Below, in pieces: positions 2,014 through 64,000 of a DNA stretch of 64,000 bases; the first letter of the stretch is position 1, and each line of letters begins with the position of its first letter. The position numbers and the translations under genes are program-made. The stretch comes from Cephalotus follicularis. Taxonomy: Eukaryota; Streptophyta; Magnoliopsida; Oxalidales; Cephalotaceae. Location: positions 62,001 to 126,000 of the forward strand of contig BDDD01001969.1 in NCBI GenBank assembly GCA_001972305.1, in the 5' to 3' direction. Under the pieces are notes generated by a model. It was not told where the DNA came from, searched no databases, and saw nothing but the letters and a program-made list of their open reading frames with translations.

Positions 2014-2222
2014 AGCGTCGATGCTTAGCCCCGGGCGTCAACAGTTTTAAAAAACACAAGTATAAAGAGTCAACGGTTTGTTCTAAAGCATAAGGCGTCG
2101 ACTGTTTGGTTTAACTCATAAAAGCGTCGACTATAAGTTTAACACATAAAAGCGTCGACTGTAAGTTTAACACATAAAAGCGTCGACAGGTTTAGTTTTG
2201 AAAGCATAAAGCGTCGACGGTT
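2014..2222. repeat. GTCGAC-motif array in LTR A (left copy)
   Basis: The GTC of successive GCGTCGAC or GCGTCAAC motifs lies at about 2017, 2037, 2069, 2097, 2126, 2154, 2182 and 2214. The first step is 20 bp. The later steps are mostly 28 bp, with two of 32. The 28-bp unit reads GCGTCGACTGTAAGTTTAAC followed by ACATAAAA. The right LTR has one unit fewer. Confidence 0.88.
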
Positions 2223-2747
2223 TTGATAGAAAATGCAGTTTGTGAAAGAGTTCGTAAACTATGTCCGAAACAGTTCAAAACCTTTTAAGATTCATCCCAT
2301 AGCCCGTGAATTAAGAGAAGGCAAGAACTCATCTCCTCTTAATTCAACGTCGAACCCTTATATCATATGCCATATGCAGTATACATATCCATCCGTATGC
2401 TCCTATATATATATATATATACAATCATGCATCCATACAAATACAATTCGTACACATCAATCCATATAATTATTTAGAATGCATGAATGTAAAGCAAGCA
2501 ATAGTATAACCTACCTCGTAGCAACTGACCTCGTAAAGCTCAGAAATCCTCTATCCTTGATCGTCTCGTTTATCCTTGATCGTTTCCTTTATCTTGCATG
2601 CACAACACATTTCCGTTACACTCTATGCACGAAAACCAAGAACAGCCGCTATCGGAGCTTCGGCCAGTTTCCAACCAACTCATTTAGCTCTAGCGAAACC
2701 CAAAAACAGGTTCCACATTGGACGATATGTTCAAAACCATCGGAGGC

Positions 2748-3110
2748 TCACCGTGACTCGTCGTGAAATGCGCTATCACGGCCGGCAGTGAGTCAACTCG
2801 CCGATCAACCACAACTTCGGTCACCACATAAAATCGCCACACAATCATGAATTCTATGCGTCACTGCCAGAGACTCGCTGTGACTCACCGTGAAACGCGC
2901 TGTCATGGTCGGCCAGTGAGTTCTACTCACTGAGTTGACTCGGTGGCCAACCACAACTCCAATCAACACTCCAAAACGCCATAACCGACCTTAAAATGCT
3001 TCAACCAGTCCATTGGTATTCGTAAATCGCCATGACTCAGTGCAAAATGCTGTGTCACAGGCGACAGCGAGATGGACTCGCCGTGTTGACTCAGTGACTA
3101 TAATCCGTCC
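2748..3110. repeat. Imperfect tandem repeats, about 120-155 bp, three copies
   Basis: Three diverged units start near 2748, 2870 and 3025. Each carries a GTGACTC / GTGAAACGCGCTGTCA segment and a later CAGTGAGT / GTTGACTCGGTG segment. The same block recurs in the right LTR near 9890-10250. Its function is unknown. It lies upstream of the pyrimidine-rich end of the LTR. Confidence 0.6.
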
Positions 3111-3760
3111 GATTTAGGCCGAAACACACCACAACGACCACCAAAAGGGGAAGAGCTGGTCTTCTAGACAAAGACCGGCCCTTTACCCGCGACGAAATCG
3201 GCGACTGGTGGCGTTGACAGTGACGGTGAAACGTCAGGGGAGAAGAGAGAAGAAGGAAAATAGAAGAGGAAAGGGGTTACCGTGGGTCGCAGCATGCTTC
3301 CGGCCGTCGAGCTTCGCCCGACACCATTTCTTCTCTGGCGCCATCTCTCTCCTGTTCTCTCCTGATGTCTCTCTCCCGTTGTCTCACTCTCTCCCACAAT
3401 CTCGTCTGTCATTCTTTCTAACACACGGGTGCCTTATGCGCACGTGTGTCTCTTTTTCTTTCTTTTAAATTTTGCTTCCCTTCTTGGTATTTACTGGCCA
3501 AAATGCTAAGGCTTGGGTCCCGTTTAATCCGCAAACGGCAATATTAATTATCCGAACGGGTACCAAAATAATCGCAATAAAAATGCGAACATAGGGCCTT
3601 ATTGTCGCGCATTAAAAATGGGCTTTATTAGGCATTTTGGGCCTTATGATTTGCAGCTCCAATACACGATGCTTTTTATTAATTCCGGCTCCATCGGCTC
3701 AATACGGCCATACACTGTGCCAATATTAAAATAATCGTTTATAAAATTTAGGGCGTTACA

Positions 3761-3775
3761 TCCTCCCCTCCTTAG
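3761..3775 (-). promoter_or_regulatory. Polypurine tract of element A
   Basis: On the minus strand AAGGAGGGGAGGA abuts the TGTAACGCC start of the 3' LTR. This is the standard plus-strand DNA priming site of gypsy elements. Just upstream is the inverted repeat AAATCTCGGGACGAGATTT, of the same kind as the TTTCGAGGACGAAA repeat in the Tekay-like elements of this window. Confidence 0.9.
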
Positions 3776-4087
3776 AAAAATCTCGTCCCGAGATTTCCTA
3801 GGTTAAAACTTGAGAGGGTAGAATGTCTTCGTTTCTCTCTCGCGTCTCATGCAACTTTCTCAAGCTCATAGCATTATCATCACACTTCACCCATGAAACG
3901 TCCTCATCCTTTAACCATTTGGTCCATGACCGTATAACTCGTTTCATCATCCTTAGGCGTCCATATCATTCGAAAATAATCTCTGAACATATATTTATGT
4001 ACATATATATGAGTTCTCCTCAACTCGTATCCGTCCTTAGCCCTAACGGCTCAAATGGTAGCACGTGAGAAGGATCTGGATAATACA

Positions 4088-6515
4088 TTATGAGTATTGA
4101 GGTATGAACACCTTATGGAATACATGATCTTCCCGTGTGAGTTCTGCTAACGGCAGAAGTCCATTCCAACCGTTATCTCTATCCAACACGCTTCTGTGAT
4201 GCCACTCTGATCCAGGCATATACTCTACCATACATGGTAGGTTCCAATCCCGTAAGGGTGAGTGGTAAGGTAAGTCTATGGGCAACTGCACCTACTCTCT
4301 CTTCATGTCATTCCACCAAATTGAATTACAGATCTCAATACATCTTGCTAATCGCCGGATGTACTGAGAAACTGGAGCGATAGGCTTATGACCATAGCTC
4401 ACCCTTCAACCATTTATTGTAAAGGATACAAATTCTGCATTGGGATCTTATCAACTCATCACCACGAATCGAGAATTCGGGTTTGAATTCATCTTGATCA
4501 TGTAATGCAGCCTTAAGCAATTCATCATCCATCCCTTGAGCCTCTCAATTCTATCCATCATCCACGGTCGTGCTTGTACTTGGGAGACTGCCAAGCAAGC
4601 TAATCAGCGACCTAAGGCATCTGCAAGCATATTAGCATCGCCTGGTTGACATTGGATCTCACAGATGTAACCATTGAGCAGCTTCATCCACCTTCTTTGT
4701 TTCATATTTAGATCCTTCTAAGAGAAAGGATGTTCAGACCCTTGTGATCTATGAAAACCTCTAACTTTGTGCCGTATAGACAGGGTCTACATTGGCGTAG
4801 CGCATGGCTAACACGGAAAATTCTAGGTCATGAGTAGAGTAACTTACTCCCGAGGCTCCAACTTTCCTGAAGACATAGGGGCTCATTCCCCAAACAATCT
4901 CAAAATATAATTCACACCGTTCCCTGAGGCATCACTATATACCACGAAACCATCATTGCTCTCAGGTAAAACCATGATCGGCGCAGATATCAGACGATGT
5001 TTTAACTCCTGGAAGCTCCCTTTACCACTATCATCTTTTACATCCCGTCTTTCTGCATCAATCGGGTCAAAGGTGTGGTAGCAGCGATAGTAACCCGCTA
5101 AGCCTAAGAAACCACGGATTATTGTCACGTTTATCAGCCATTCCCAATCCTTCACTGCTTCTACACTTGTTAGGTCCACAGACGAACTAGCACTGTGGTC
5201 AACGTGAACAAGGAAGCTACCTCCAATAATAAAAACTCCATACTTGCTGAATTGGCATACCACTGGCGATCTCGCAAGACCTGCAGTGTTTAGTACAACC
5301 ACTTCCCATGGCATTCCGCAAGCTTGGAATGCACTAACACATCATCGAAGGAGACTACAATGATATGGTCAAGATATGGATTACACACCCCTTCCATAAA
5401 GTTTGTGAATGTAGTAAGGAATTGATCATCCCCTTTAACGACACTACGATCCACCCACAAGGTCCATATCGTGACTTGGAGATTGTCGATGATAACACAC
5501 ATTCAAATGGATCCATCTTTGCAATCACTTTCTAACTCATCCATCGGCAACACTAGGAGGTTTTCCGTCATATAGGGTCGACTATCTTTATAGCGCACGA
5601 CTCACACACTCCTTCAGGATGAATAGATTCTCCCATTGGGGTGTTAACTTACATAACATTCCATAAGGGTTCTAGTTTCACATTAGCATGACATATGAGT
5701 CACAAGGCAATACATGAACTGAGCGAATCCGGGTCCATAGCCGTATCTTTGCCATGCCATAACCATATACCATAAACTATACAATATACGTCCTATAGTC
5801 AGGGCTCGTCGACCCTTCCTCTCGGTGCCACACAAATCTACCATGGTCATCTCAGTCGGTGACCTGTTCGCTTCACATGTCATGGCCCTCACTGTCACAC
5901 CATTGGTATATCTCATGGGGTTTCAGACCGGTTGCCTTTTCGAAGTCGGCCTCCCTAGCAAGTCTAGACTACTTGGCAGCCTCAGAAACGGCCTACTAGG
6001 TAGCCTTAGGTGCTAGCCTGACTAGGGAATCCTTTAAGGATAGAACCCAAGCAAAACCAGATACTTCATATGAAACAGGACATTTGGGTGTCAACACCAT
6101 CCTCTAGGCGTCGACTTCATCACTGTAGGCGTCAACTTGTAACACTGGTTAATGCACAGAAACGCGAAAGAATGGTCATCGCGTCAACTACTCACCTCTA
6201 GGGTGTCAACTCTTCATCATAAGTGTCGACACTATGAACCAATGCGTCAACGTGTTGATCGACAGAGGGGTTGACAAACAAAGGAGAATTCCAGCCAAAC
6301 CCCTAGAAACAATCAATCAGATACTATGAACCCTTATTTAGAGGTAAGGATGTTAACTCACCTTGAACCATGTCCAGGTATTCACAAACAACCAGAACAT
6401 CCTCAAACCTCGGTACCGGTCTCCTGTTCACATATGCCAGATATCCACTGTAACCTTGTCCCATAAGTCTATCAGTATGAACGGCTGATATCATCTGAAC
6501 TAGCTGATGATCCAA
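4088..6515 (-). pseudogene. Decayed pol region of element A (RT, RNase H, integrase tail)
   Basis: Minus-strand translations show gypsy pol pieces in the expected order. Near 6324-6515 is the segment leading into reverse transcriptase (DVLVVCEY...LTSLPLNK). Near 5290-5502 is an RT core with VVSFDDVLVHSK, corresponding to the usual F/YxDD motif. Near 4883-5314 come FLGLAGYYR and the RNase H-like YSDASGNGV. Near 4088-4291 is a chromodomain-like tail (WNGLPL...REDHVF). The normal product would be the polyprotein that copies and integrates the element. This copy is fragmented with many breaks and cannot act by itself. No clear gag is seen between 6516 and the primer site. Family assignment rests on these motifs and the LTR structure. 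Confidence 0.75.
6085..6260. repeat. GTCGAC/GTCAAC motif array inside the body of element A
   Basis: The GTC of GCGTCAAC, GCGTCGAC or GTGTCAAC motifs lies at about 6090, 6110, 6131, 6183, 6205, 6225 and 6246. The steps are 20, 21, 52, 22, 20 and 21 bp. Unlike the other arrays in this window, this one is not in an LTR but between the decayed pol and the 5' LTR. Confidence 0.8.
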
Positions 6516-7126: not shown

Positions 7127-8336
7127 AGCTGTCGCTCCCCGAACCGCGAGAGTAAACCACCACGATCCGACGCGTGATATTCATTCTCTTCAGTCATTCA
7201 ATCATATATAATCATACTCCAAAAAGTGCTATAAATTTAAAACTTTAAACCAAAGTCATATAAGCGGAAGAATCATTATATAACATCAGCGGAATAATCA
7301 AATCAAACAAAAACTAACTCTTAAAATCTCCCGAAATTTCGGCATGAAGTATTCGTTTATAGGACTAAACCCCCTGTAAAGGAAAACTCAATTTATATCT
7401 CAACACTCCCAAAGGAGGAATCAGTAGTTTATGTATATATACGGGCTTAGCCCTCAGAAACCACACTCCCGAAGGAGGAAACAACAGTTTATCACAATAA
7501 GGGGTCCTGTCTATATCGTTTACATCAACATCCATATCATAAGCACTGCCACATGTCGGCAGGTTGATAGCTGAATAAAACATAACTATAACATCTTTAT
7601 ATTTGTCTCAAATACATAGGGTTCCTTTTCACAGTCCTTATACATAACAAGCCTTATATCTCAAAACATTTTAATCATAAACATGAGGCCCCTTTTATAC
7701 AACTATTATATGCAACCCCTATAAGCAAATCCAAATACAAGCAACTCCATATACAATTGGCTAACAAAAGTTGTTATAGAAAACCTGTCATTGTCAGCTT
7801 ACCTCGTTGCAATCCATCACCTGTGCCTGGGCCTGACCCATTCCACACACAGGGGGAATGGGTCAGCGACATAATGTCGTGTAGGTATACCAAGCTATGC
7901 ATGCAACAGTATAATAGTAATATGCATGTAACAATATATCAATGTATTTCATGCAGTGCATCAGCATAATGGTGATATGCGTGGAACAGTATAAAGATAT
8001 GTCATGCATGCCACAGGGTAGTAAAGTGCTATGCATGTATCCAATGTAATCATAAGTCATGTGGTAAACAAAATATATATGTGTATCAATATGCCAGGTG
8101 ATATCATGTGTGTAAATGGCAATCGTGGACAGCTTCAATATACCAGCCGTCCCTAAGCGGGGTATATTTAGCTATTACGAATCACATCAAAGGCCATAGG
8201 CCTGCAGACAATCCATATCAACCATAAGGACAATCAGTCCATAGGGTCCATCCCACCCTCGACGCACTTTTGGTGTCGTGGAGGTGTGAGGAATGAGATA
8301 ACACTGACCACGTCATTTATTTCTTGATTTGTAGGG

Positions 8337-8519
8337 GTCCACCCATGTGTGGGGTCTGAGCAACATATATGGGTCCACCCAATGTGTAGGGTCCGCACAA
8401 TGTATATGGGACCACCCATGTGTGGGGTCCGTTCAATGTATATGGGTCCACCCAATATGTGGGGTCCGCGCAATGTATATGGGTCCACCCAATGTGTGGG
8501 GGCCAAGCAATGTATATGG
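8337..8519. repeat. 36-37-bp minisatellite, five copies
   Basis: Counterpart of the six-unit block at 1132-1350 in the sister LTR. Units begin GTCCACCC and end GTATATGG. Confidence 0.9.
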
Positions 8520-9182
8520 TCTATCGTTCCTGACATTCACGACGGAAATGAATGTCAGGAACGGGTTATCTCGTTAGTCTCATACAATACAATCAATAAT
8601 CCATCCCGTAGTTGTGACCCAAAATCATGTATGCTTTAAAATGATAGGAACCATTTTGTAAAGGATCTCATAGGATCCACATCCGTCAAATCATGTCATG
8701 TCATTTCTATAATCATGAGTCATTTTGTTTCATATTCAATGGCCATTTTCGTTTCCAAAATCCATTTTGTAATCAATTTTTATATATCATTTGGTTGGTC
8801 CCTATCAAAGTTATAATGAATGGAAAGGGAGTCCAAATGGGAGTATCTGCGCCTAGATGTCCCAATGGAAGCACCTGACCATTCTAAAATCCATAAAATA
8901 ATGGCGAGAAAGACCAAATAAGATATCTGCGTCTCGATATCCCAATGGAACTATCCTGACCATTTTGAAAACCATTTAGAAACCATTTACGTAAAACTCT
9001 TTTATTGAGTACTTTCCTTAAAACTTCACTTTGAACATCGATTTAGAAATCAAATATGATACAGAAGAATTTACATAGGTTACAAAGCCTTAGGGAGGCT
9101 TTCTCTGGAATTCGGTTGAAGATACAACCATTTTGGATGGAAAACCATGTAAAACAGTGTGTTTGGGCAGAATAGGGCACTA

Positions 9183-9362
9183 AGCGTCGATGCTTAACCC
9201 CGGGCGTCAACAGTTTTAAAAAACACAAGTATAAAGAGTCAACGGTTTGTTTTAAAGCATAAGGCGTCGACTGTAAGTTTAACATATAAAAGCGTCGACT
9301 GTAAGTTTAACACATAAAAGCGTCGACAGGTTTAGTTTTGAAAGCATAAAGCGTCGACGGTT
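9183..9362. repeat. GTCGAC-motif array in LTR A (right copy)
   Basis: Same motif series as 2014-2222 with one 28-bp unit fewer. The flanking LTR text aligns on both sides, so the difference is a clean unit gain or loss. Confidence 0.87.
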
Positions 9363-10908
9363 TTGATAGAAAATGCAGTTTCTGAAAGAGTTCGTAAATC
9401 ATTGGAACTATGTCCAAAACTATTCAAAACTTTTAAGATTCATCCCATAGCCCGTGAATTAAGAGATGGCAAGAACTCATCTCCTCTTAATTCAACGTCG
9501 AACCCTTATATCATATGCCATATGCAGTATACATATCCATTCGTATGCAAGTATATATATATATATATACAATCATGCATCCATACAAATACAATTTGTA
9601 CACATCAATCCATATAATTATTTAGAATGCATGAATGTAATGCAAGCAATAGTATAACCTACCTCGTAGCAACTGACCTCGTAAAGCTCGGAAATCCTCT
9701 ATCCTTGATCGTCTCGTTTATCCTTGATCGTTTCCTTTATCCTGCATGCACAACACATTTCCGTTACACTCTATGCACGAAAACCAAGAACAGCCGCTAT
9801 CGGAGCTTCTGCCAGTTTCCGGCCAACTCATTTAGCTCTGGCAAAACCCAAAAACAGGTTCCACATTGGACGATATGTTTAAAACCATTGGAGGCTCACC
9901 GTGACTCACCGTGAAACGCACTGTCATGACCGGCAGTGAGTCAACTCGCTGGTTAACCACAGCTTCGGTCTCCACCCAAAATCGCCACACAATCATCAAT
10001 TCTACGCATCACTGCCAGAGACTCACCATGACTCACCGTGAAAGGCGCTGTCACAGCCGGCCAGTGAGTTCAACTCACTGAGTTGACTCAGTGGCCAACC
10101 ACAACTCCGGTCAACACTCAAAAAAGCCATAACCGACCTTAAAATGCTTCAACCAGTCCATTGGTAGCCGTAACTCGCCGTGACTCGGTGCCAAACGCCA
10201 TGTCACAGGCGACAGCGAGATGGACTCACCATGTTGACTCAGTGACTATAATCCGGCCGATTCCGGCCGAAACACACCACAACGACCACCAAAAGGGGAA
10301 GAGCTGGTCTTCTAGACAAAGACCGGCCCTTTACCCGTGACGGAATCGGCGGCTGGTGGCGTTGACAGTGAGGGTAAAACATCGCGGGAGAAGAGAGAAG
10401 AAGGAAAAGAGAAGAGGAAAGGGGTTACCGTGGGTCACATCGAGCTTCTAGCTGTCGAGCTTCGCCCGACGCCATTTCTTCTCCGGTGCCATCTCTCTCC
10501 CGTTCTCTACCGATGTCTCTCTCCCGCTGTCTCACTCTCTCCCACTCTCCCGTCTGTCATTCTTTTTAACACACGGGTGCCTTATGCGCCCGTTTGTCTC
10601 TTTTTCTTTCTTTTAAATTTTGCTTCCCTTCTTGGTATTTACTGGCCAAAATACTAAGGCCTGAGTCCTGTTTAATCCGCAAACGGCAATATTAATTATC
10701 CGAACGGGTACCAAAATAATTGCAATAAAAATGCGAACATAGGGCCTTATTGTCGCGCATTAAAAATGGGCTTTATTAGTCATTTTGAGCCTTATGATTT
10801 GTGGCTCCAATACGCAATGCTTTTTATTAATTCGGGTTCCATCGGCTCAATACGGCCATACACTGTGCCAATATTAAAATAATCATTTATAAAATTTCAG
10901 GCGTTACA

Positions 10909-11111
10909 CAAGGCGTCGACACTTTGCCTACGTGTCAAAGCGTCGATGCTAAAACAATGGCGTCGACGCTTTTGATGCCTTAGAAAGTAAAAAGAAAGAA
11001 AAGAAAATAAATTAATAACAATTCAAACGGTCCGAACAAGATAGCATATATCAGAAGACATAAACACATCATATAACAATAAACACGTAGGCATAGAAAT
11101 GGGGTATTATA
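10909..11111 (-). repeat. LTR B: end of another minus-strand LTR, host of element A
   Basis: A 203-bp stretch ends GGGGTATTATA, a likely mutated form of the GGGGTATTACA end of plant gypsy LTRs, exactly where the reading of fragment C stops. It carries GTCGAC-type motifs at 10911-10975 and an A-rich tract near 10985-11010. The rest of this LTR should lie left of element A, outside the window. Family unknown. Confidence 0.6.
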
Positions 11112-14209: not shown

Positions 14210-15215
14210 CTCGAGGTCGACTTGAATACCAAGAGAACTCGGCAACTATGCTCGACGCCGAGCTAGGGTGACTATCTTGATCTGCCGAGGTGCATCATGT
14301 TGCTTGAGGAGCTCGGCAACCATGCGTATACCGAGTTCGGGGTGACTTTCTTGGTTGGCCGAGGTGCACAACATCATCAAAAGTACTCAGCACCTAGTCA
14401 TTTTTTTACCAAATTGAGAGGAACATCTTAGATGCCGAGGTGCGCCATGCTATCAAGAGTACTCGGCACCAATTTGCTTAGATCTAGTTGAGAGGAGCAT
14501 ATTCGAAGCCAAGGTACGTCATGCTAGCAAGAGTATTCGGCACCAAGTTTATTAGACCGAGTTGAGAGGACCATCTTGGAAGCTGAGGTATGCCATGCTA
14601 GCAAGAGTACTCGACACCAAGTTGCTTAGACCGAGTTGAGAGGGCCATCTCAAAAGTCGAGGTGTGCCATACTAGCAAATGTACTCGGTAAGGGACCATG
14701 TGAAATATGGTCGTCCTTTGAGTTTTGTGGTGCTGAGGTCACCGTACTAGCCAGGGAACTCAACAAGAGACCTTGTGAAATGTGATCATCCTCCGAGTTT
14801 TACGGCACTGAGGTGCGCCATACTAGCCATTTAACTCGGAAATGGACCATGTGAAATGTGGTCGTGGTATGAGTTTTGTGGCGTTGAGGTGTGTCATACT
14901 AGCCAATGAACTTGATAAGGGACCATGTGAAATGTGGTCGTCCTCTGAGTTTTGTGGCACTGAGGCGTGCCATACTAGCAGATGAACTCGACAAGGGACC
15001 ATGTTAAATGTGGTCATCCTCCTTGTTTTGTGACGCCTAGGTATGCCATATTATCCATTGAGCTTAGCAATGGACCATGTGAAATGTGGTCATCCTCTGA
15101 GTTTTTTGGCGCCGAGGTGTGCTATACTAGCTAGTGAACTTGGCAAGGGACCATGTGAAATGTAGTCGTCCTCCGAGTTTTGTGGCACTGAGGTGTGTCA
15201 CGCTAGTCAGCAAGA
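14210..15215. repeat. 75-bp tandem array, about 13-14 units
   Basis: Units recur every 74-77 bp, marked by GAGGTGCGCCATGCTAGCAA-like text, with starts near 14210, 14285, 14359, 14435, 14510, 14584, 14658, 14732, 14808, 14884, 14960, 15035, 15111 and 15187. Two subfamilies can be seen. The left units carry GAGTTGAGAGGACCATCTTG. The right units carry GACCATGTGAAATGTGGTCG and CCTCCGAGTTTTGTGG. Each unit also contains ACTCGG and CCGAG, an inverted pair. It lies in the leader or LTR of element D. Confidence 0.88.
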
Positions 15216-15995: not shown

Positions 15996-18529
15996 TGTTG
16001 GGGACGGCTTGAAAGCGGAAGGAAAAACAACCAATTCAAAATTTAGGGTTTAGGGCCGATTAATATTGAATATCATCCAATTGATTAATCCCCAAGCAAT
16101 GGGATACCCTAACCAAAGTCCAAATTGTCCCAATAAATGTCCAAGGAACCCTAATACACATTAAATCAAACCAAAAACCAAAACCTAGCATGGGGGATGA
16201 TCGGGTTCACCATAGGGTTGCCATAAACCCCAACAATGGGCACTGAAAAAATGGCTCACAAGGACAACACACATACCCTAACCATAAAGCCCAAGAAACC
16301 CAAACCATAGCTTCCCTAACCTTAAGGGTAGCTAGGTTCCCACAGAAGAGATAGGGGGTTTCGGCTAGGGTTCACCAACCCTAGCTACGACTCGCTGCCA
16401 GGAAGCACAAGAACAAGAAGAGATGAGATGATTACCAAAGAGTGATGGCTCCTTCCTTCAAGTGTAGCTCCCTCTTCTCTTTAATCCCAAGAACACCAAG
16501 GATCTCCAAGCTCCTCCTTAAACCATGGATAAGGAAGATGAAATGTTTGAGGCCATGTGTTTAACCTATGCTAAGTCACTCGAGGCTGAGATAAGATGCA
16601 GTGTACAAGTTATCTCCACATATAATGAGCTTTGAGGGGTGAAAGGATGGTTGAAAATGGTGTTTCTTCCAAACCAGGCGAAATGGCGTCGACGCCTAGC
16701 GTAAGACGAGACGTAATGAAGAGAAAGATCACTGGCCAGTAAGAGAGGGAGAGTTTCTGTGGGACAAAGTGTGAAGTGTGTTATGAAAGCCAAGACCTCT
16801 TGTCATTTAGACATTAAACAATACATTCTTTAATTGCTTTTTGTCCTTTTGTATTTAATGCTCAAGTACAACTCTCTAGCTTCTTGAACACTCCTCTCCT
16901 TTCCCACCAACTTCTCTTAAGTTGACTAGTACCAAGTGTCTGCCCAGTGTGGCGTCAACGCCATGTGTCTCTTCTTATCAAGGCGTCAACGCCAATGATA
17001 AGATGAAATAGGCTAACTCATCCCATCAAGATGTCAACGCATGCACACCATGGAGTTAACGTCTAAGTCATTGGTTTACATAGCGTCAACGCATGCTCTT
17101 CATGGCGTTAACATTTAAGTCACTGGTTTACATAGCGTCAATGCATGCTCCTCATGGCATTAACACCTAGAGACTCAACTAGACATGGCATCAACACATG
17201 CTCTTCATGGCGTCGAAGCCCAAGACATAGGACGAGACAATCTCTTCTATTTTCAAAACCCTTCGTATGGAATATTTCATCGTGGCTTTACATGGACCCA
17301 TATCCAGCAAATGAAATACTCGCCAGCAAAGTAACATCTCCTTGATGTTATCCTTACACTAAATGACATGTGTCCATAACACGTGTCAACTTGTTCAAAG
17401 CCAGGCAGGACCCGAAAGCTTGTCGATCTACAGCATGATGATAAATTCCCATAACATCTCGATTTTTGGTACGACTATTCTAACAGTCACCGACTATTAA
17501 AATAGCCCCTATGTGAGCACTAGTCACCCCCCGGATCCGTGTATTACCACGTATATTTATCATAGTATGAATAGGCAGTGCTATACTCAGTCATCGGCAT
17601 ATGTGTCATGTTTCCCTCGTTTTACTTGGCTCTGATCGCAGCCTAGCTTTTGGATGAATGTCACCCCTAGATATTCTGCGATAACTATAAATCTATGAAT
17701 GTACTGAGACTATCAGCAGACTTCCCATGGAAACCTCTCGTTCCCAGTCTACCTATGCCTGATCAGGACTTTTAAGTCTACAACGCACATAGATAAATAG
17801 AGACGGTCACCCTTAGCTTGGGTGTGACGATCCCCTATTGCGCACTAGCTCATACATCGTAATGCAGCTCCCACAAGGCCCAAAGACAACCCTTTTGCCA
17901 GCACGTGGCTAGTGCTGGTGAAGGTGAAAATCAAAGGCAAGCAGTTACTACATAATGCATGCCAGCCGCTCAGGTCAAAGGAGACAACACATGCTAAAGA
18001 CCTACTAGTCACCATAGACTATACACTTCCGAGACCATAGGAATCCTATTGACATTGGGTATTGACTATACAAATAGGTTTCCTATTTGTGGGTCAGTTC
18101 AGTGTCATGCTCTCTTGCATACACCCCACATTAGCTTTAGGGATCCACCTAAATGGAAATGAGATAACCATCCTCCACTGCTAACCCGAGAGCAATCGTA
18201 AAGTGACAAGTCTTCGCGGTTCAACAATGGTCCATGGAAAGTGAACCTATGAGTTGGAACATTTTGTCACAGGGAGTAAGGATCTCATTCTCATAGCTTC
18301 CCTAGCACGAGCTCCAACACTTTGGTGTGACATGGTGCTATATGACATACAGTTAATTATAAATAATTATTCGATTCCTTTTGGTTGGTTTGGATGAGCC
18401 ATACAGCCTTGCCAATATAATAAATATGCACACAAAACATGAATTGAATTCAGAATTGTATAAATCAAGAGTGTATATATGCAAACAATGAGCCATATCA
18501 TGGCATCCATGGACACCCCAAACCTAACA
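15996..18529 (-). repeat. Copia 3' LTR (2534 bp)
   Basis: Runs TGTTGGGGAC...AACCTAACA and pairs with 37627-40160 over its full length. It contains a GTCGAC-type array at 16950-17220 in which most motifs now read GTCAAC or GTTAAC. No genes. The short telomere-like TTTAGGGTTTAGGG near 16043 is shared by both LTRs and is part of the element. Confidence 0.95.
16950..17220. repeat. GTCGAC-type array in the copia LTR (left copy)
   Basis: GCGTCAAC/GCGTTAAC motifs have their GTY core at about 16954, 16985, 17033, 17054, 17085, 17107, 17137, 17159, 17190 and 17212. The last seven steps alternate between 21-22 and 30-31 bp, which makes a 52-53-bp higher-order unit such as TAGCGTCAACGCATGCTC plus CATGGCGTTAAC. 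Its counterpart in the other LTR lies at about 38583-38850. Confidence 0.85.
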
Positions 18530-19530: not shown

Positions 19531-19535
19531 GTATA
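19531..19535. repeat. Target-site duplication of the first Tekay-like element, left copy (GTATA)
   Basis: GTATA precedes TGTCGCACCCC at 19536 and recurs at 28268-28272 after TGTTACA. Perfect 5-bp match. Confidence 0.92.
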
Positions 19536-20023: not shown

Positions 20024-20026
<3 letters not shown>

Positions 20027-20827: not shown

Positions 20828-20910
20828 CTTCGTAAACAGTACGCGTCTTCTACATCACTACTCACCCCAGCTTCGCCACCTCAGCGAATCCGGGTAAAGC
20901 GACACGTGGA

Positions 20911-31365: not shown

Positions 31366-31378
31366 ACCATCAAGAGAA

Positions 31379-34688: not shown

Positions 34689-34694
34689 AAAACT

Positions 34695-45390: not shown

Positions 45391-45536
45391 TTGCCTGAAT
45401 TTGGTTGCTCAAGTTTATTTCCTCAATTGAATTCACAACCACAATTCATATAACAATTAGACATTAAATTTCAAGTAAGTGCATATTTTATTCATCAAGA
45501 GTACAATGTACACGGATTGAAATTGCGGTTATTACA

Positions 45537-49080: not shown

Positions 49081-49235
49081 CGAGTCGATGTCTTTGGAAA
49101 GACGTCGACGCCTATGGGAACAAGGGCGAACGTGAATGCATGTACATGCACTTCAATGTAGACAAAGACATCGACACTCTCATATGAAAGGGGAAAAGAC
49201 ATCGACGTCTAAGGAAGACGTCGACGTCTTAGAAA
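49081..49235. repeat. GACGTCGACGTC-type array, first cluster
   Basis: Cores at about 49084, 49104, 49170, 49201 and 49220: steps 20, 66, 31 and 19. Includes the perfect palindrome AAGACGTCGACGTCTT. The sister LTR array is at about 59565-59715. Confidence 0.85.
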
Positions 49236-49997: not shown

Positions 49998-50080
49998 ACG
50001 TCGACGCTTACATAAAGACATCGATGCCTTCGTGTGTGAATGCAAAAGACATCGATGTTTGAGTAAAAACATCGACGCCT
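49998..50080. repeat. GACGTCGACGC / GACATCGATG array, second cluster
   Basis: Cores at 50000, 50020, 50051 and 50071: steps 20, 31, 20. The counterpart in the sister LTR is at about 60478-60560. Confidence 0.85.
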
Positions 50081-50291: not shown

Positions 50292-50415
50292 GACATCGAC
50301 GTCTTTAAAAAAGCATCGATGTCTTTGGTCCTAAAACGCCTGGGAATAACAGCACAAAATGTTGGAGCCTTAGGGTAAAGACGTCGACGCCCAGGGGATA
50401 AACGTCGACGCTTAT
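50292..50415. repeat. GTCGAC-type array, third cluster
   Basis: Two pairs: cores at 50295 and 50315, and at 50383 and 50404. Pair spacing is 20 and 21 bp. Confidence 0.82.
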
Positions 50416-50852: not shown

Positions 50853-50943
50853 GACAACTTAGCGTACCCTCCACCGGTGGGTAAGATTTGATGAACAATG
50901 AGATGGTGGAGAAGTCTATGATCTACGGACAAACGATTTGTGG

Positions 50944-51505
50944 TCAGTGCCATATTTGGATGTACATTTGGATCGTTAGGGTACAAAATCGACAAGATTT
51001 GGTTAGGGTGAAAACCCTCAACCTCCGGCCACTTCTTGTGTCAAAGACATAGAGACCGGTGTGTGGAATATGTAAAATGGAAGCTAGAATCCTAGCAGTT
51101 AGATAGATCCTTTCTCCTTTAACAGAAGACGTGAGGGCAAATTCCTCATTTTGGTTGGAAGCCATCCTAAGGTTAGAATAGAATTCTTTGACCAATTTGA
51201 TATAGAATGGGTCAGAAATTTGAACTAGAGGAATGAGATTGAGGTCCTCTAACCAAGACACGAAAGAGAATTCAGAAGAGCAGAAGTTTAAATCTATGTT
51301 TCTTCCTCCCATAACCCGTTTGTCAACAAAAGCTACCTTCTCAAAGGAATGGGGGCTTGCTCTTCGGATTCGGAATCCAATTGGAGAGCAGGGTCGGGAG
51401 ATGGTTCTCTAATCTCAAGCCTCTGCTTTTTAGCAGATTTCGGAGGCTGAGATGAAGAAGCACCCTTCTTTTTGCCAACACGTTTTGATCAGACCATTTT
51501 ATCGA
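50944..51505 (-). pseudogene. Extra ORF: 'putative plant transposon protein' (PF20167-like) remnant
   Basis: Near 51505-51400 the minus strand has a basic, Ser-rich N-terminus (KRVGKKKGASSSQPPKSAKK). It is followed at 51312-50944 by DLNFCSSEFSFVSWLEDLNL, IPLVQISDPFYIKLVKEFYS, SVKGERIYLTARILASILHI and PHTGLYVFDT. This layout fits the plant-specific transposon-associated domain that reads 'L...F...FY.NL...V.G..I.....I...L.IP..G'. Function unknown. It lies downstream of copia RNase H. The frame is broken. An alternative is a Gag-like gene of a separate element captured beside the copia text. Confidence 0.6.
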
Positions 51506-51704
51506 ACAGGTGGTGTGCACAAGAGAAATACACAGAGAATGATAAAAATGGATGATGTGGACGACACGAAAACAATTTTTGATGATGTAGAAGTAGTCAG
51601 GGAGTGATTTACGACCTAATAGAGTGAGTTTTGAAGAAAAACGAAGAGAGAAGAAATTTTTTGAAAAATCAGAAATGGAGGTAAAGTGAGGAAATGAACA
51701 TGAG

Positions 51705-51975
51705 GTCGACTTTTTATGAAGAAGTCGATTTTTGAGAAAAAGACGTCGACGTGATTTGAAAAAGAAGTCGACGCGTTCTTTAAAATATAGCTGCAAAAAC
51801 GGTGCATTTTTAAAAGTATCGACGCGATTTAAAAATAGTCGACGTGTTTCAGTGAAATACAAAGGGATCGACGTTTTTCATAAAGGATTGACGTGATTTT
51901 CATAAGCAGAATTTTTCCAGAAAAGGAGTCGACGCGTTTTAGTAAGGCATAAAATTTCCAGAAAAGAAGTCGACT
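51705..51975. repeat. GTCGACGCG-type array between copia RNase H and the extra ORF
   Basis: Cores at 51705, 51724, 51745 and 51768, then 51818 and 51838, then 51867 and 51887, with further copies near 51929 and 51971. Most steps are 19-23 bp, with larger ones of 29, 42 and 50. Outer arms resemble GTCGACGCG and GTCGATTTTT. Confidence 0.82.
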
Positions 51976-52084
51976 CTTTTGTAAAACAGAACAGAAAAAT
52001 CAACAAAAAACAGAACAATAACCAATGAAAATCATCACATCAATTATGCATTCAATCTAACATATCATTCAGACATCATAAACA

Positions 52085-52468
52085 TCATTCAATCTCACAC
52101 AAACCTAATTCTCCTCTAAACTTAGAAAAAGTGTTATCATCTAAGGGTTTTGTGAAAATGTCCGCGACTTGTTCTTCGGTCGGGACGAAAACTAATTCTA
52201 TATCTCCTTTTTCAATATGGTCTTTAATGAAGTGGTATCTAATGTCTATGTGCTTGGTTCTAGAGTGATGAACGAGATTTTTCCCTAAGCAAATAGCACT
52301 AGTGTTATCACACCTAATTGGTACTTTTTCAAAAGTAAACCCATAATCAAGAAGTTGTTGCTTCATCCACATTACTTGTGTGCAACAACTACCTGCGGTA
52401 ATGTATTCAGCTTCAGTAGTTGAAAGAGCTACTGAATTTTGTTTCTTGCTAAACCAAGAAATGAACAT
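52085..52468 (-). pseudogene. SIRE-like copia RNase H
   Basis: Minus-strand text reads ISWFSKKQNSVALSTTEAEY, MKQQLLDYGFTFEKVPIRCD, NTSAICLGKNLVHHSRTKHI, DIRYHFIKDHIEKGDIELVF and EEQVADIFTKPLD, the classic copia RNase H C-terminus ending LGLCEIE. It is cut at its upstream side by the LTR at 52472. RNase H would remove element RNA from the DNA hybrid. Fossil. Confidence 0.92.
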
Positions 52469-52471
52469 ATT

Positions 52472-54340
52472 TGTCACACCCCGTTTCCATAGGACATAGA
52501 CAACATATAAAGTGGTACGGCAATCAACATATAAATCCGGCTTATGCAATCTACCATAAATTTAAAACTTTTCATATCCATTAACATCTCGCGGAAGCAT
52601 CAAATATAAGCCGAACACATCACGCATCCCATACTACGTGATGTTTATAAATATCCCAAACATGAATATTGATCGCCCGAAACGGAGCGTGAAATAAAAC
52701 AATACATCAGTACGAGATAATAATGTAAATCACGTTACAAAATAATCCCCAATACATATTATGATAAATGTTCAAAACTCAATATAAAAAGAGAATATCC
52801 AAGCTTTCTCTTTAAGTCTCCGTGCATTATTCCGTCCACAAGTTGTAATAAGTTACAAAACTTAAAACAATACATTTCTCTGTCTTTGGAAATACTTCCC
52901 CAATCATTTCGAAAATATATACATTCGTAAATTATACATTTTCGCAAATTACATTTGGTCTCATAATCAAACCTTAAAAATAGTTCTCTGTCATTGGAAA
53001 TTCTTCCCCAAACATTTTGAAAATATATAAATTCATACGTTGACAAATATACATTTTCGTACCCAAATGATCATAATAACCATGCAAGCTTTTCAAATGG
53101 TTTAACACTTTTAGGAAAGCAACCATAATGCAAATCACAGTAACAATGCAAACATATGCTCAGAATGCATCTAGGATCGTTCCTAAAGTCGTTTCGGGTC
53201 TAACGGTCCTTATTCAAGCAAATTCCTACTGTCCAGGAGGAAAGACGTCGATGTCATTCCATAAGGCGTCGATGTCTTTTAGCCTAAAGCGTAAATCCTG
53301 TATACAATTATTTCCAGGCGTACTCGACCCAAAGACGTCGATGTCTTTTACAAAGACGTCGATGTCTTTTACAAAGACGTCGATGTCTTTTTCATACCAG
53401 AAAACATCAGTTGCGAGCCTTGATTCAAGAAGCTAAAACTCAACCTTTTAATCCTTTACATAAACGGATCCCACTATATAAATGTGAAACACATGCTACT
53501 GGTTAATAGTAACACAACCATAACATCAATCCGAAACCAAACAGGTGATTCCAAGTGGCTAAAATGGCCATCAAACGAACATCATAGTTCTATAGTTTCC
53601 CAGAAATGGAGTCGATGTCTTTATAAAAGACGTCGATGTCTTTTCATCACAGAACGTGTTTTCCACGGTTTTAACACGCCAGGCAAATATCAAACCCATT
53701 CCCACACACAAATTCATGTAATCCTACATGCAAGATCAATTTGGTGTATCACAGTGACACTACAACAAGTCCAGAATCTCAATCCAATCATTAACATGCA
53801 ATCCACCATGCTATACATTAACATAGAACTTAAAATGCACATATAAATCCATCACTTTCCCCTACCTTGTTGTTCCAAGTTAGGAACTGGAAAGTCCACC
53901 TCTTTTAGTATCCAAACAGGTCACAGTAGCCTCTCTAGGTCCGTCCCGAAGCTACACCAGTGATTCCAAGGTCCAAGCTCCAAGGTCCAAGCTCCAAGCT
54001 CCAATGGCACACACACACTCACTGGTTTTTCCTTTTCTCTTTCTTCTGATGTTATAAAACAAGAGAGAGAGGTGGAGAGGGTCGTTCTTAAGTAGATGAC
54101 TCTCACCTAACACCCTTCTTTTGTCATTTAACCACCACACCCGAGATCTCTCCCATTTTCTCTCTTTCTGCATATTCCTTTCATATTCTAATCTTTCTTT
54201 GCAGATTGCATGCTAGGATGGCATGATTCCTTGCATGTTCCATGTGAGGGTAGGTTTTAGTGCTCCTGGTCAGTACACAGACATGCTCAACACGTCGAAT
54301 CGCACTTGAAAAGGCATTAGGTAAAGCCTTAAACAATTCT
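52472..54340 (-). repeat. Tekay-like LTR, minus strand, partial (about 1.87 kb)
   Basis: Starts TGTCACACCCCG. Its reverse complement follows the plus-strand host LTR through several landmarks (53100-53210 matches 50440-50580, 53860-53900 matches 49720-49760), so it is the same broad family in opposite orientation. The far end near 54340 shows no TTACA edge, so the piece is incomplete and the junction with the host LTR end is estimated. GACGTCGATGTC arrays lie at 53244-53395 and 53610-53645. Confidence 0.75.
53244..53395. repeat. AAAGACGTCGATGTCTTT array
   Basis: Motifs start at 53244 and 53265, then at 53334, 53355 and 53376, all with 21-bp steps inside each run. The last three units are almost identical (21-bp repeat ACAAAGACGTCGATGTCTTT plus one base). 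Confidence 0.92.
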
Positions 54341-54672
54341 CCCCACATGTATTTCTGCCGACAATTGGATTATTGTAACGTGGTTTTTATATCTGTCATG
54401 TATTGATGGATACCGTGGTTTATTTCATTTCGTATTGTATTATCACGCTCCGTTTATTGGCGATCGACAATGATGTTGGATTTTTATATAAACATTGTGG
54501 GTATCACGTAGTATGGGATGCGTGATACATATTTAAATTCAGCTTATTTCATGTTATTGCTTCCGTTATTGAAAGTTTTTGATTATACGTAAAATCGCAT
54601 AAGCTGAATTATGTTGTGTTGATTGCCTTACCGCCTTAATGTTGTCTTCTTGGAAAACGGGGTGTGACAGCA

Positions 54673-59342: not shown

Positions 59343-59351
59343 TATTGTGTT

Positions 59352-59387: not shown

Positions 59388-60718
59388 TGTAACGCCTGGG
59401 ATTTTCGTTATTGTAATATTTCATTTTAAGATGTAATCTTACGTTGAATTAATGAAAATAGTGGAGATTTTGACCTCAATGATGTTTTCAAAACCCTAAA
59501 TATTGTTTTGGGGAAAGGAATGTGTATGTTAAACCAAAACGGTGCAATTTTGGGATAAACGCGTCGATATCTTTGGAAAGACGTCGACACGCCTATGGGA
59601 ACAAGGGCGCACGTGAATGCATGTACATGCACGTCGATGTACACGAAGACATCGACACCCTCGTATGAAAGGGGAAAAGACATCGATGTCTAAGGAAGAC
59701 GTCGACGTCTTTGAAAAGAACATCAGTCACGTTATACACTGACAGAATAACATGCAAATGGACAACTTTTGAGGCATCTTGACATGCACAAAGAGACGTG
59801 TTGATCATGCTAGTGTGTTTCCAGGCATGCTCCAAAACGTGTCCTTGACATGGTGCATGCAAAAGGATATGCCATCTTCATCTGCAACTTGCAGAAAGAG
59901 AAGGGAAAAGAGCCAAAAACTGGAAGGAGAAAGGAGAGCACGGGTGTGTGTGGATTCTTGTGAACCAAGAGAGAAGGAAAGGATTCCTGCTAGCATAAAA
60001 CACCTCTCCCTTCCCCTCCTTCTCAGCTCAACACTGTGAGAAAGAAAAGGAAAGAGACCTGAGAGTTGAAAGGAAAAATAGAGGTAGAAAGAAAGAGGAG
60101 TACCACCATTGTTGAGCACTTGGAGCTTGGAACTTGGAGCTCCTGGGATTACAACTTGGGACGAACTTTTGAGCTACTGTGAGCAATCCTTGGAACACAA
60201 AGAGGTGGACTTACAAGGTTTCTAACTTGAAACCATAGGTAGGGGAAAGTGATGATCTTATACATGCATTTTGGGTTTTAAGATAATGAAATGCCATTGA
60301 TGAATTGCATGTTAATGGATGAATTGAAATCTCTGGATTTGTTGTGATGACTGTTGTGATGTACGGAGTAACCATGCATGCGTAATTTACATGAATATTC
60401 GAACTGGTTTGTGTGAAGGATGCATTGGTAATGGCCTGGTGTGTTAAAACAATGGAAATGACGTTCTGGGTTAAATAGACGTCGACGCCTACATAAAGAC
60501 GTCGATGCCTTCGTGTGTGAATGCGAAAGACATCGATGTTTGAGTAAAAATATTGACGCCTTTTCTGGGTAATTCTAGAACAATGGTGTCCACTCTGGGT
60601 GGTGAAATACCCACTTGTGGTTTCATGTTTTATTCACGAATTGATGTTCTTGTTACATATTCTGATAACCAGTAGCATGCCTTATACTGTGAGAGAATGA
60701 GATTGTTGTTAAGGGTCG

Positions 60719-60723: not shown

Positions 60724-62058
60724 TGTCATACCCCGTATTTCCATTCACGTATAATGGACAAGCATATGCGGTGATATCAGAAATAAGCATAAATAATATT
60801 CCAGCATTTCAATTAACAATTCATAATTAAATTTGCGAAAGCATTCGATAAGCCAGAATATATTACAAGCCGTCCGCACGCATCCCATACTACGTGCGGG
60901 TAAAACCAACGATTATCCTTACACAAAAGGAAAATACACACAACACGGGATGTGATCCGTTCGATACAATACAATACATCATAAAGGATTAATAACCTTA
61001 AATCGAAAATAAGAAGCTCTCCAAGCTTCAGCAGCAGTCTCCAAATGTCCTTGTTTAATCTGAAATTGTAGGGGTTAGCCGTTGTCCTCACTTGGCTAAG
61101 TAGGAAGATAATGCATGATAAGGAATATATGAATGCAACAGGTGTGACAGTTTATATCAAAATAACATTTAAATGCGCCAATATATGAGCAATCATTCCA
61201 AGTGGCCATAGACAATCCATATGCAAGAATACCGCACAAGGGTACAATCAATTCATCCCTCACTTGGGTGTCACATGTCGTTAACTCCTAGCACCAACTG
61301 TGCACCACCTATCTATCACCCTACGCTCCGAGGATGATAGATAAGGTAACACTTATTACCGGCGTTGGCGGGTAGTTTAACAATCAATCTCTGCATTGCA
61401 GAACACTTGGGTGATACTCTGGCCAACTCCTGGCACCCAGAATCACATTCCGTAGTCAGTGACATCCTCCGTCACTCAACCACGGCAATCATAGACAAAC
61501 AATACAAGCAATTCAATAATATTACATATATCAACAATATGCAATAGAAAAGTAGTTTTCTTTAGAACCTATGACAAGTCACTTATCGTACATCTCTTCG
61601 GAGGAAAACGATATCAATTCAATAATGGTTTCCAGTTTGGGAAACAAAACAGTAGGTACCTCTCATATAGGAGGAAAATCAGTAGTTCATTGGCAATAAT
61701 TTTTCACTTGAAAACGATAGTTAATATCATGATTTGGGTACATAGCCCATAATTGGTTCCAATCCTTGAATACAAGTGGTAGTGGTGTTAATAGCACCAA
61801 AAATAGTATATACTAACAAGACAGTAGTATATTCAGTAACAATATCACAATTCAATAGCAATGCAAGGTTTCACAATAATGGCACTTTATGGTCAATTCA
61901 TATGCAACTCTCACAAGGAGTGCGTACATTGTTAAATTTTGGAATGTAATTATTTATGAGGCCAGGATTAACTGTTCTAGTCATCCATATGGAGGCCAAG
62001 TTCATTACATTCAAAATTGAGGCCTTAATAGGACATATACCAGAAAATTTACCCAGAA

Positions 62059-62175
62059 CAGTCGGCTGCCATCAAGATTAGCCGACTGCCTTGGTTGTGT
62101 AGTCGACTGCTTTGCCTTGGCAGTCGACTGGATAGGTTGAGTAGTGGACTGCCAAGGGTGGCAGTCGACTGCCTC
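62059..62175. repeat. CAGTCGACTG array, six motifs
   Basis: Starts at 62059, 62079, 62100, 62121, 62142 and 62162: steps 20, 21, 21, 21, 20. This is the same step pattern as the homologous array at 44118-44231 although motif and spacer letters have changed. Confidence 0.92.
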
Positions 62176-63195
62176 TGGCCAGAAAATGCAGGCAGTAGCA
62201 AGTCATGCACTTCCAATTCAATTTCCAATCAATTTTAACACATGTAAACATGCAGAAAATAGACATACACAATATGCATACTATATCTTCCATAACATAT
62301 AATTACCCCTACCTCAAATCGCTATCCCAAGATCAATTGAGTTTGATCTTTCTCTTTAAGTTTCAAGCCTTCTTTCACCAACAATCTTTCAATCCAGCAA
62401 GTTCAATCTATGTATGCATGCTTATGAACACATGAATTAGTACCAGTAGGTTTCAGTAGTTACTTATAACAATTACAATTCCAACAATAGCTTAATCATC
62501 AAGTTCTCTAAGTTTTAACTTCCATTTAACAATTTCCTTTGAACTCTATGTCAACTTTTATCCAATCTCGGATTCATTGGTCTTAACTTGTTTTGACAGA
62601 AGATGTATAAATACTTAAGAAACTAGTAAGCATATATCCTAACATTAACAACAACTATAATCCATTCTAGAGCTTATAGTCACCAATTCCACTTGAACCA
62701 TTTACCATCTTCTATTCCAATTCTAAGAGTTGTTGATTCTAATCCATTAACAAGAGATATTAACATTCTCCTAGCTATTTTATCATCATAACCACAGAGA
62801 ATTCGGATTGAGAACTTACCAAGAGACCAAAGCTTCCAAATCCTCCTTTGAGCTCTCTAAATCATCCAATGCAAGCTCCAATAATCCCTCTCTTCACTCA
62901 GTGTTTTCTAACACTCATATCACAATTCAATAGCTGATATAATGTCAAAATCCTTTTGAATTCGTCAGATTCCTTCTCCAAGTCACATGCACTCACTTTT
63001 CTCTCTTTTCTTTCCATCACATGCATCCCTCTCTTCACTTTTCTCTCATTAATTATCAATTTGTAGGTTGTAGGTCTGCAGAGAACATGCAAGCATTCCC
63101 TTTTGCATGTTCTGGCAGGTGGTGAAACGCATGTGCCTCCTACCCACCTGTCATTCTTGTCCCTGCACATGCCAGGAATCTGTCCTGGGCAATTC

Positions 63196-63280
63196 CAGTC
63201 GACTGGCTATAGTGGGCAGTCGACTGCCTTCATCACGTAGCAAACAGTCGACTGTTGCCCTGTGACAGTCGGCTGTTTGG
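63196..63280. repeat. CAGTCGACTG array, paired motifs
   Basis: Starts at 63196, 63217, 63245 and 63266: steps 21, 28, 21, as at 45260-45390. Repeated again at about 63619-63700 in the duplicated LTR end. Confidence 0.92.
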
Positions 63281-63871
63281 GCTAGTTTAGGGCTTCTTAA
63301 CTTTGATACTTCACCAAATGTGCATCCATTCATCCCAAGCATTTACCAATCATAGAAATCAATATAATTGGACAAATAACTCAAATAAAATGTATATTTT
63401 ATTTCAAAATTGGATCAATTTACATTAATTGAAGTTGCGGTTATTACAGTACCATAGGCATGTCGTAGGCCTGGCACGGGGATATGACATTGTAGGTCTG
63501 CAGAGAACATGCAAGCATTCCCTTTTGCATGTTCTGGCAGGTGGTGAAACGCATGTGCCTCCTACCCACCTGTCATTCTTGTCCCTGCACATGCCAGGAA
63601 TCTGTCCTGGGCAATTCCAGTCGACTGGCTATAGTGGGCAGTCGACTGCCTTCATCACGTAGCAAACAGTCGACTGTTGCCCTGTGACAGTCGGCTGTTT
63701 GGGCTAGTTTAGGGATTCTTAACTTTGATACTTCACCAAATGTGCATCCATTCATCCCAAGCATTTACCAATCATAGAAATCAATATAATTGGACAAATA
63801 ACTCAAATAAAATGTATATTTTATTTCAAAATTGGATCAATATACATTAATTTGAATTTGCAGTTATTACA

Positions 63872-63876
63872 GATTC
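63872..63876. repeat. Target-site duplication, right copy (GATTC)
   Basis: Matches 60719-60723 exactly. Confidence 0.95.
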
Positions 63877-64000
63877 TCCCCCTTAGAATCAAGATTCGCG
63901 AACTAATACCTCCTGGTATCATAAAGACATTGATGCCTTTGGAAAAGCATCGATGTCTTTGGTCCTAAAATGCCTGGGAATAACTGCACGAAATGTTGGC

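Follow-up and report, generated by a model that had tools for sequence, protein, structure and literature searches.

Palindromic GTCGAC arrays recur in long terminal repeats of Ty3/gypsy and Ty1/copia elements within 64 kb of the Cephalotus follicularis genome

The window analysed here, a stretch of 64,000 nucleotides from Cephalotus follicularis (GenBank assembly GCA_001972305.1, contig BDDD01001969.1, positions 62,001 to 126,000 of the forward strand), is densely filled with nested long terminal repeat (LTR) elements, and arrays of short palindromic sites centred on GTCGAC recur in LTRs of both the Ty3/gypsy and the Ty1/copia type. An earlier note on this DNA had described such arrays in both superfamilies, and the counts bear it out; composition does not explain them. 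GTCGAC occurs 71 times in the whole window, compared to 6.6 occurrences expected from dinucleotides, and no other of the 64 palindromic hexamers is as frequent. The expectation rises to 51.9 under a maximal-order model, in which the 5-mers are already built in. The five highest-ranking of 2080 hexamers by z score are all words of the motif, namely CGTCGA, GTCGAC, CGACGC, CAGTCG and AGTCGA. When the site is extended to a palindromic 10-mer, 37 exact and 66 one-mismatch copies are found, compared to 0 and 3.5 in 20 Markov sequences, while about half of the two-mismatch copies are noise (97 vs 50.9). We call a 10-mer with at most one mismatch a good site (n=103), while the array catalogue admits up to two mismatches; because the consensus was derived from the same window, p-values for the 10-mer are descriptive only.

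The elements were delimited by self-comparison, by primer-binding sites (PBS) and LTR ends, and by Pfam scans of chosen open reading frames (ORFs), which covered between 20 and 30 of the 84 stop-to-stop ORFs that reach 100 amino acids. Element A (minus strand) is of Ty3/gypsy type with LTRs of about 3.8 kb and a weak RNase H match below the cut-off, and element B (minus) is a copia element with 2.5-kb LTRs that are 89% alike and with other elements nested inside. Element C (minus) is a complete chromovirus-like Ty3/gypsy element flanked by the target site duplication (TSD) GTATA. Element F (plus), likewise chromovirus-like Ty3/gypsy, shares RVP_2 with C; C also matched a Ty3-type gag or SH3, and F matched Ty3-type RNase H and integrase. 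F' denotes reversed LTR pieces related to F. Elements D (minus) and G (plus) encode a PF03732 gag and a protease and are what we take to be Athila-like elements; the LTR start of G is an estimate. E1 and E2 are solo LTRs with the TSDs GCTTT and GATTC, respectively, whose orientation and group were deduced from ends matching those of C and F, and E2 lies within the 3' LTR of F. A SIRE-like copia fragment, S, occupies about 50856-52471.

The sites concentrate in the LTRs, which make up 30.0 of the 64 kb and hold 53 of the 71 GTCGAC cores as well as 92 of the 103 good 10-mers; the coding body (15.0 kb) contains 2 of the cores and none of the good 10-mers. Observed and expected numbers of GTCGAC in the LTRs are 9 vs 0.79 for A, 8 vs 0.29 for C, 17 vs 0.28 for E, 8 vs 0.41 for F and 8 vs 0.19 for G, and the SIRE-like fragment has 6 vs 0.23. 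In the LTRs of B (2 vs 0.37) and D (1 vs 0.26) the exact hexamer is weak, and the F' LTR lacks it (0 vs 0.24); the arrays of these three are built of variants instead: 10-mers with up to one mismatch number 8, 3 and 6 in B, D and F', compared to 0.30, 0.11 and 0.06 expected. Allowing two mismatches, the number of sites per LTR or fragment is 17 in C, 15 in G, 14 in E2, 13 in F, 11 in E1, 8 in S and 6 each in A, D and B. The CpG observed-to-expected ratio of the arrays exceeds that of the remaining sequence in 9 of 9 cases, in D barely (1.74 vs 1.55), at a GC content of 0.35-0.55, with the sites themselves contributing CpG. A paired-motif search of viral contigs returned 0, 91 and 0 stretches, the 91 being hits to the GC-rich form.

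The arrays also have a characteristic pitch. Among 81 steps of 15-75 bp between neighbouring sites, 37 measure 19-22 bp and a second class measures 28-32 bp, precisely the two classes that the earlier note had read from the letters. More than one pair at 19-22 bp was found for only two of the 14 commonest palindromes, GTCGAC itself (8 pairs) and GACGTC (5 pairs), which is part of the same sites in F. Broken down by lineage in a slightly different set of 76 steps, the 19-22 bp class accounts for 28 of 48 steps in Ty3/gypsy-type LTRs and 6 of 16 in Athila-like ones (p 4e-4), and is not significant in the copia arrays (2 of 12 steps, p 0.18).

The shape of the site was studied on hand-picked site lists, which also underlie the masking, folding and covariation analyses below and carry our own selection. 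In a test of dyad symmetry the GTCGAC core is palindromic, and complementarity extends to flank offsets 1-2 in most sites of C, E and B and is seen at offsets 4-6 in sites of D and F', while the flanks in A and S are largely asymmetric. The flanking dinucleotides differ by family: C and E have CA..TG, B and G have GC..GC, and F and F' have AC..GT. By hexamer counts, the only neighbours of the core enriched 1.7-fold or more are the RYCGAC-type words GCCGAC (3.7-fold) and ATCGAC (2.9-fold) and the form expected from CpG decay, GTCAAC (1.8-fold); CTCGAC (1.6-fold) comes next. With 106 sites placed in sense orientation, 55 substitutions fall into the left half of the core and 16 into the right, a bias that holds in 8 of 11 groups. 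From the enriched neighbours and this left-half variation, the sense-strand word is best written as RYCGAC with GTCGAC as its commonest form, and it fits 101 of 133 array sites on at least one strand. Two other explanations of the variants were rejected. A W-box would account for the TTGAC contained in GTTGAC and GTCAAC, but these come from GTCGAC by CpG decay, and we treat them as such because they are a minority (14 of 133 sites). Strand-biased hypermutation was dropped as, in core variants with a single substitution, sense G-to-A changes (ATCGAC 17, GTCAAC 4) are similar in size to C-to-T changes (GTCGAT 6, GTTGAC 10).

An indication that the sites matter comes from diverged members of one family. 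Between E1 and E2, 84 of 95 site positions are identical, compared to 81 of 140 in the spacers within arrays (p 2e-7) and 1861 of 2347 outside arrays (p 0.016; shift control 2.6%). F and F' likewise agree at 58 of 63 site positions, 73 of 104 in-array spacer positions and 550 of 727 positions outside arrays (p 5e-4 and 1e-3; 0 of 1008 shifts), so that overall sites are 88-92% and in-array spacers 58-70% identical. The central CpG is a mutable position in a methylated genome; between family members it is nevertheless kept in all 16 comparable sites (9 of 9 GTCGAC and 7 of 7 RYCGRY), compared to 23 of 62 other CpG (p 4e-4). Since the sites outlast their spacers while the distances are kept, the sites look selected, as far as can be judged from the sequence. 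Between the two LTRs of one insertion they are not better kept than the rest, with 50 of 50 vs 3290 of 3486 identical positions in A, 49 of 60 vs 1996 of 2219 in B, 116 of 128 vs 826 of 882 in C and 64 of 70 vs 980 of 1028 in F. Such a pattern would follow from selection that works on elements while they are active and ends once they have inserted.

Part of the motif sharing is due to descent. The LTR ends of A, C, E and F/F' are all of one kind, and the bodies of C and F are 75% identical. In C, E and F the first array begins 150-180 bp into the LTR, and the C and E arrays are nearly superimposable, with sites at 157, 178, 206, 226, 252 and 272 bp in C and 152, 173, 201, 222, 250 and 271 bp in E, despite spacers that no longer align once the sites are masked. 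A, C, E and F/F' thus look like one Ty3/gypsy group, within which the array was probably inherited. The LTRs of C, F and F' keep their homology after motif masking; among Ty3/gypsy-type, Athila-like (D, G) and copia (B, SIRE-like) LTRs no similarity is left when the sites are masked. The list of array-bearing families in the earlier note stands as far as the arrays are concerned, while the number of independent families is smaller than it implied. Independence of all families, as its proposal has it, is not supported for A, C, E and F/F', where descent plays a part; the Athila-like and copia arrays have only the motif detectably in common with the Ty3/gypsy-type ones, and may stem from repeated gain or from exchange. 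A clear TATAAAA box was found only in the LTRs of F (TATAAAAC, position 605) and G (TATAAAAA, about position 538), each of which has one array upstream of the box and another downstream.

On balance, we lean towards reading the arrays as grouped binding sites by which a protein that recognises specific DNA sequence, or a small set of related proteins, would make them work as enhancers or promoters of the LTRs. A protein would bind the arrays, probably at two sites two helical turns apart, binding would raise transcription from the LTR, and families bearing arrays might thereby spread better. The flanks differ by family, so the specificity, or the factor itself, would have drifted. The idea of a binding array, as the earlier note had put it, fits sites and spacing that are kept while spacers diverge; of the functions it had listed, anti-silencing of the VANC type is possible, with no VANC-like gene found, and activation by the host is at least as likely. 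We know of no DREB sites that feature a palindrome or a 21-bp step; in its base preferences a DREB/CBF-like AP2 factor is still the nearest known specificity, and we name it as a rather unlikely candidate binder. The specificity of barley HvCBF1, (G/a)(C/t)CGAC as cited in PMC3602543, equals the RYCGAC of the window arrays.

Several observations weigh against the binding-site reading or parts of it. Sites also occur beyond the LTRs, in the body of A (4 GTCGAC vs 0.47 expected) and in 13.2 kb of unassigned sequence (6 cores vs 1.2), part of which is perhaps unrecognised LTR. Helical phasing beyond the 19-22 bp class is weak (p about 1e-3, phase 1.8 bp off), and the 28-29 bp steps are out of helical phase. 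Within one insertion, 9 of 13 motif CpG are kept compared to 146 of 307 others (p 0.11), which is no clear advantage. The left-half bias is reversed in G (3 left, 6 right) as well as in S (0, 2), and E2 ties. Strict CCGAC, counted on both strands, is limited to 27 of 133 sites, and sites of the GACATCGATGTC type in F lack RYCGAC, both of which speak against an ordinary DREB factor. Finally, the sense RNA of 7 of 19 arrays folds better than with shuffled spacers, which sites for a protein alone would not predict.

This last result bears on a structural role, in which neighbouring palindromes pair and transcripts or single-stranded complementary DNA (cDNA) form hairpins for packaging, dimerisation or the production of small interfering RNA (siRNA). 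Each of the 8 arrays folded is more stable than its shuffled counterparts with the same dinucleotides (z -2.2 to -8.5), the 7 arrays that stay unusually stable when sites are fixed and spacers shuffled include the same array of E1 and E2, and 15 of 17 spacer pairs of the E2 fold can form in E1, 3 of them with changes on both sides. Bousios et al. are also said to have linked the LTR palindromes of Sireviruses to siRNA hot spots in 2016. Such a role is a serious competitor of the protein reading, though we consider it unlikely. In the remaining 12 arrays nothing is gained over the sites alone, the array of A does not fold beyond its sites, and the effect in F and F' follows from a longer palindrome, that in B from a tandem repeat. 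The minimum-energy folds of E1 and E2 differ, and the commonest variant in C, GCCGAC in sense, breaks pairs instead of giving G-U. Within families, none of the 9 offsets compared in 106 sites shows covariation of the left with the right flank, for which reason a hairpin or cruciform of a single site was rejected as well. A comparably low probability is assigned to anti-silencing, whereby an element-encoded VANC-like protein would bind the arrays and remove methylation, with other families sharing or parasitising it. The better survival of motif CpG between family members and the position of the SIRE-like array directly before an accessory ORF would suit it; no VANC-like domain (DUF1985/DUF287) was found in the Pfam-scanned ORFs, many elements being partial, and we know of no VANC factor common to several superfamilies. 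In the accessible part of PMC5735166, the targets of VANC21 in VANDAL elements have the motif YAGTATTAY, are spread by tandem repeats and differ between related transposable elements. The arrays resemble them in that short motifs cluster outside coding sequence, arise through tandem repeats and come in family-specific flavours, but the word is a different one, and VANDALs are DNA transposons that encode the binder themselves, whereas the window holds LTR elements with no such gene in the ORFs scanned.

An old array handed down within Ty3/gypsy LTRs may also have reached the Athila-like and copia LTRs through template switching, so that one ancestral module, by descent and exchange and with no repeated gain, explains all arrays. 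The geometry common to C and E and the masking-resistant homology of C, F and F' point in this direction; yet the masked LTRs of the three groups are dissimilar, as are those of E and C, and flanks and spacing vary by family, which leaves this account possible but doubtful. The arrays could also be a neutral by-product of tandem duplication and mutation bias in LTRs, without any function. Some arrays are indeed plain tandem repeats (units of 28 bp in A, 52 bp in B, 42 bp in C and 21 bp in F'), and spacers are somewhat alike within an array (0.47 vs 0.34 between arrays). Sites that outlast spacers between family members, a mutable central CpG that is kept and the same core in unrelated LTRs already disfavour this explanation, which we regard as very improbable.

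The individual arrays are distributed over the window as follows. The 5' LTR of A (7130-10908, minus) has Ty3/gypsy-type ends TGTAACGCC...GGGGAGCGACA, a PBS at 7116 and an array of 6 sites with up to two mismatches at 9186-9358. Its 3' LTR array (2017-2218, minus; steps 20, 60, 29, 28, 28 and 31) is partly a 28-bp tandem repeat, and a further array lies in the internal region (6110-6251, minus; steps 21, 52, 42 and 21). Three sites (10915-10967, no strand assigned; steps 27 and 20) stand just outside the A insertion in a flank belonging to no recognised element. The A LTRs additionally carry a 37-bp tandem repeat GGGTCCACCCAATGTGTGGGGTCC..., with 6.1 copies at 1130-1350 and 5.1 copies at 8335-8519, and a minisatellite with a unit of 74-76 bp and a higher-order period of 228 bp spans 14358-15210. 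Copia element B, with RVT_2 at 19111-19590, gag PF14223 at 35746-36177 and a PBS at 37614, has a 3' LTR array at 16954-17217 (minus), mostly CpG-decayed to GTTGAC or GTTAAC in sense and within a 52-bp tandem repeat, and a 5' LTR array at 38586-38849 (minus). In C, sites of the CAGYCGACTG type form the second array of the 3' LTR (20715-21111, minus), and the first array of this LTR (21707-21827, minus) lies 157-273 bp from the LTR start. The 5' LTR (26733-28267) has its second array at 27082-27457 (minus) and its first at 28012-28112 (minus), 157-253 bp from the LTR start.

The 5' LTR array of D (35227-35427, minus) is of the ACATCGACGT / GCGTCGACGC type, its PF03732 gag being located at 33110-34153. 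D as a whole (30722-35468) encodes gag and protease, gave no reverse transcriptase match among the ORFs scanned and has LTR copies that differ in composition; possibly it is an Athila-like element of the non-autonomous kind that retains only gag. An Rfam match to snoR71 (53.9 bits, cut-off 40) at 33609-33715 (plus) lies antisense within the gag ORF 33110-34156, while a related gag at 46010 gave no snoR71 match, and the hit is possibly a false family match in a transposable element. The G 5' LTR contains an array upstream of its TATA box (41546-41951, plus) and one downstream (42682-42784, plus). Solo LTR E1 (42811-45536), its sense strand taken from the LTR ends, has a second array at 44120-44228 (minus) and a first array at 45262-45386 (minus) with steps of 21, 28, 21, 28 and 21, 152-272 bp from the presumed LTR start. 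In the 5' LTR of F, sites of the GACRTCGACGTC type lie upstream of the TATA box (49084-49225, plus), and two downstream arrays (50000-50076 and 50295-50409, plus) follow; the 3' LTR has an upstream array at 59563-59706 (plus) and further sites at 60481-60537 and 63949. The SIRE-like array (51705-51974, minus) is placed between the end of RNase H (52085-52558, minus) and the accessory ORF (50944-51405, minus), which has a weak match to PF20167 (Transposase_32; E 2.4e-8) below the curated cut-off. The reversed F' LTR (about 52472-54376) holds arrays at 53247-53384 and 53611-53637 (minus). Solo LTR E2 (60724-63871) has its second array at 62061-62169 (minus) and its first array twice, at 63198-63273 and 63620-63695 (minus), as a 422-bp tandem duplication at one end of the LTR (63068-63872; copies 98-99% alike) doubles this array.

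Two further observations were made on the LTRs. The RY-like word CATGCA/TGCATG ranks sixth among the over-represented hexamers (109 vs 41), with 92 of the 109 copies in LTRs, which account for 47% of the window. Two insertions also ended near motif sites of another element, the right end of A at a distance of 7 bp (10908/10915) and the left end of E1 at about 27 bp (42779/42811), two cases being too few for a test of preference; a published survey reports, in its accessible part, a weak palindrome preference of LTR elements (PMC6911290).

Compared to known systems, clusters of transcription factor sites in LTRs, gained repeatedly in several families, are familiar from stress-responsive elements. 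According to the accessible part of PMC5059998, ONSEN and other heat-responsive COPIA elements carry clusters of heat-responsive elements (HRE; nGAAn repeats), and alfalfa MCIRE has a CCGAC core of the C-repeat/dehydration-responsive element (CRT/DRE), which overlaps RYCGAC variants. As far as described there, these are Ty1/copia elements (the superfamily of MCIRE being unchecked) with few sites per LTR and a measured stress response. The nGAAn clusters of the ONSEN type, bound by HSFA2, represent another motif than that of the window, and a DREB/CBF-driven LTR like MCIRE is not matched by arrays in which CCGAC is confined to the 27 of 133 sites given above. Plant Ty3/gypsy repeat arrays adjoining accessory ORFs offer another likeness, but these lie between pol and LTR, consist of family-specific repeats and share no LTR palindrome.

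The closest relatives are the palindromic repeated motifs (RM) of Sireviruses, and the claim of the earlier note that no LTR module of this kind had been described is contradicted by them. In the accessible part of their study, Bousios et al. 2010 (PMC2829016) describe for 13 Ty1/copia Sireviruses that each element has 8 or more RMs, which lie upstream of TATA in the upper LTR half and form CpG islands, with diverged flanks, an element-specific sequence, extra copies between pol and the ENV gene and no common binder found. A CGG-CCG signature is present in 12 of the 13, Tnd-1 (RM ACAATCGATTGT) being without it; the RM of Vitis, CGGTCGACCG, has a GTCGAC core. By the authors' account the RM is specific to Sireviruses within Ty1/copia and is lacking in the classic Ty1/copia elements used for comparison. 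The arrays of the window resemble RMs in palindromy and clustering and, to a degree, in CpG content, and the SIRE-like fragment, with 8 sites between pol and its accessory ORF, recalls the extra copies before ENV, although the sub-cut-off PF20167 match of this ORF does not indicate an envelope. They differ in that CCG occurs only in minority variants of a GTCGAC core, that most of them lie in Ty3/gypsy LTRs with only B and S being copia, that F and G also have arrays downstream of TATA, and that one core with a step of 19-22 bp is common to several families of one genome. A search of open-licence papers returned none describing such palindromic arrays in Ty3/gypsy LTRs. New is the module in Ty3/gypsy LTRs and one core across superfamilies; otherwise, it is a variant of the Sirevirus RM. 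We tentatively suggest that a single trans-acting factor, host- or element-encoded, could be common to the Ty3/gypsy (chromovirus-like and Athila-like) and Ty1/copia LTRs of the window, acting via a palindromic operator that flanks the promoter on either side and repeats every 21 bp, with the family-specific flanks recording repeated escape or tuning. LTR control regions diverge fast and hide regulation common to families, and a core kept across superfamilies amid saturated spacers would give a handle on the factor that drives or de-silences much of the LTR content of a large plant genome. If one shared factor holds true, the RMs of Sireviruses would no longer be a speciality of a single copia group but an instance of an operator used by plant LTRs in general, irrespective of superfamily.

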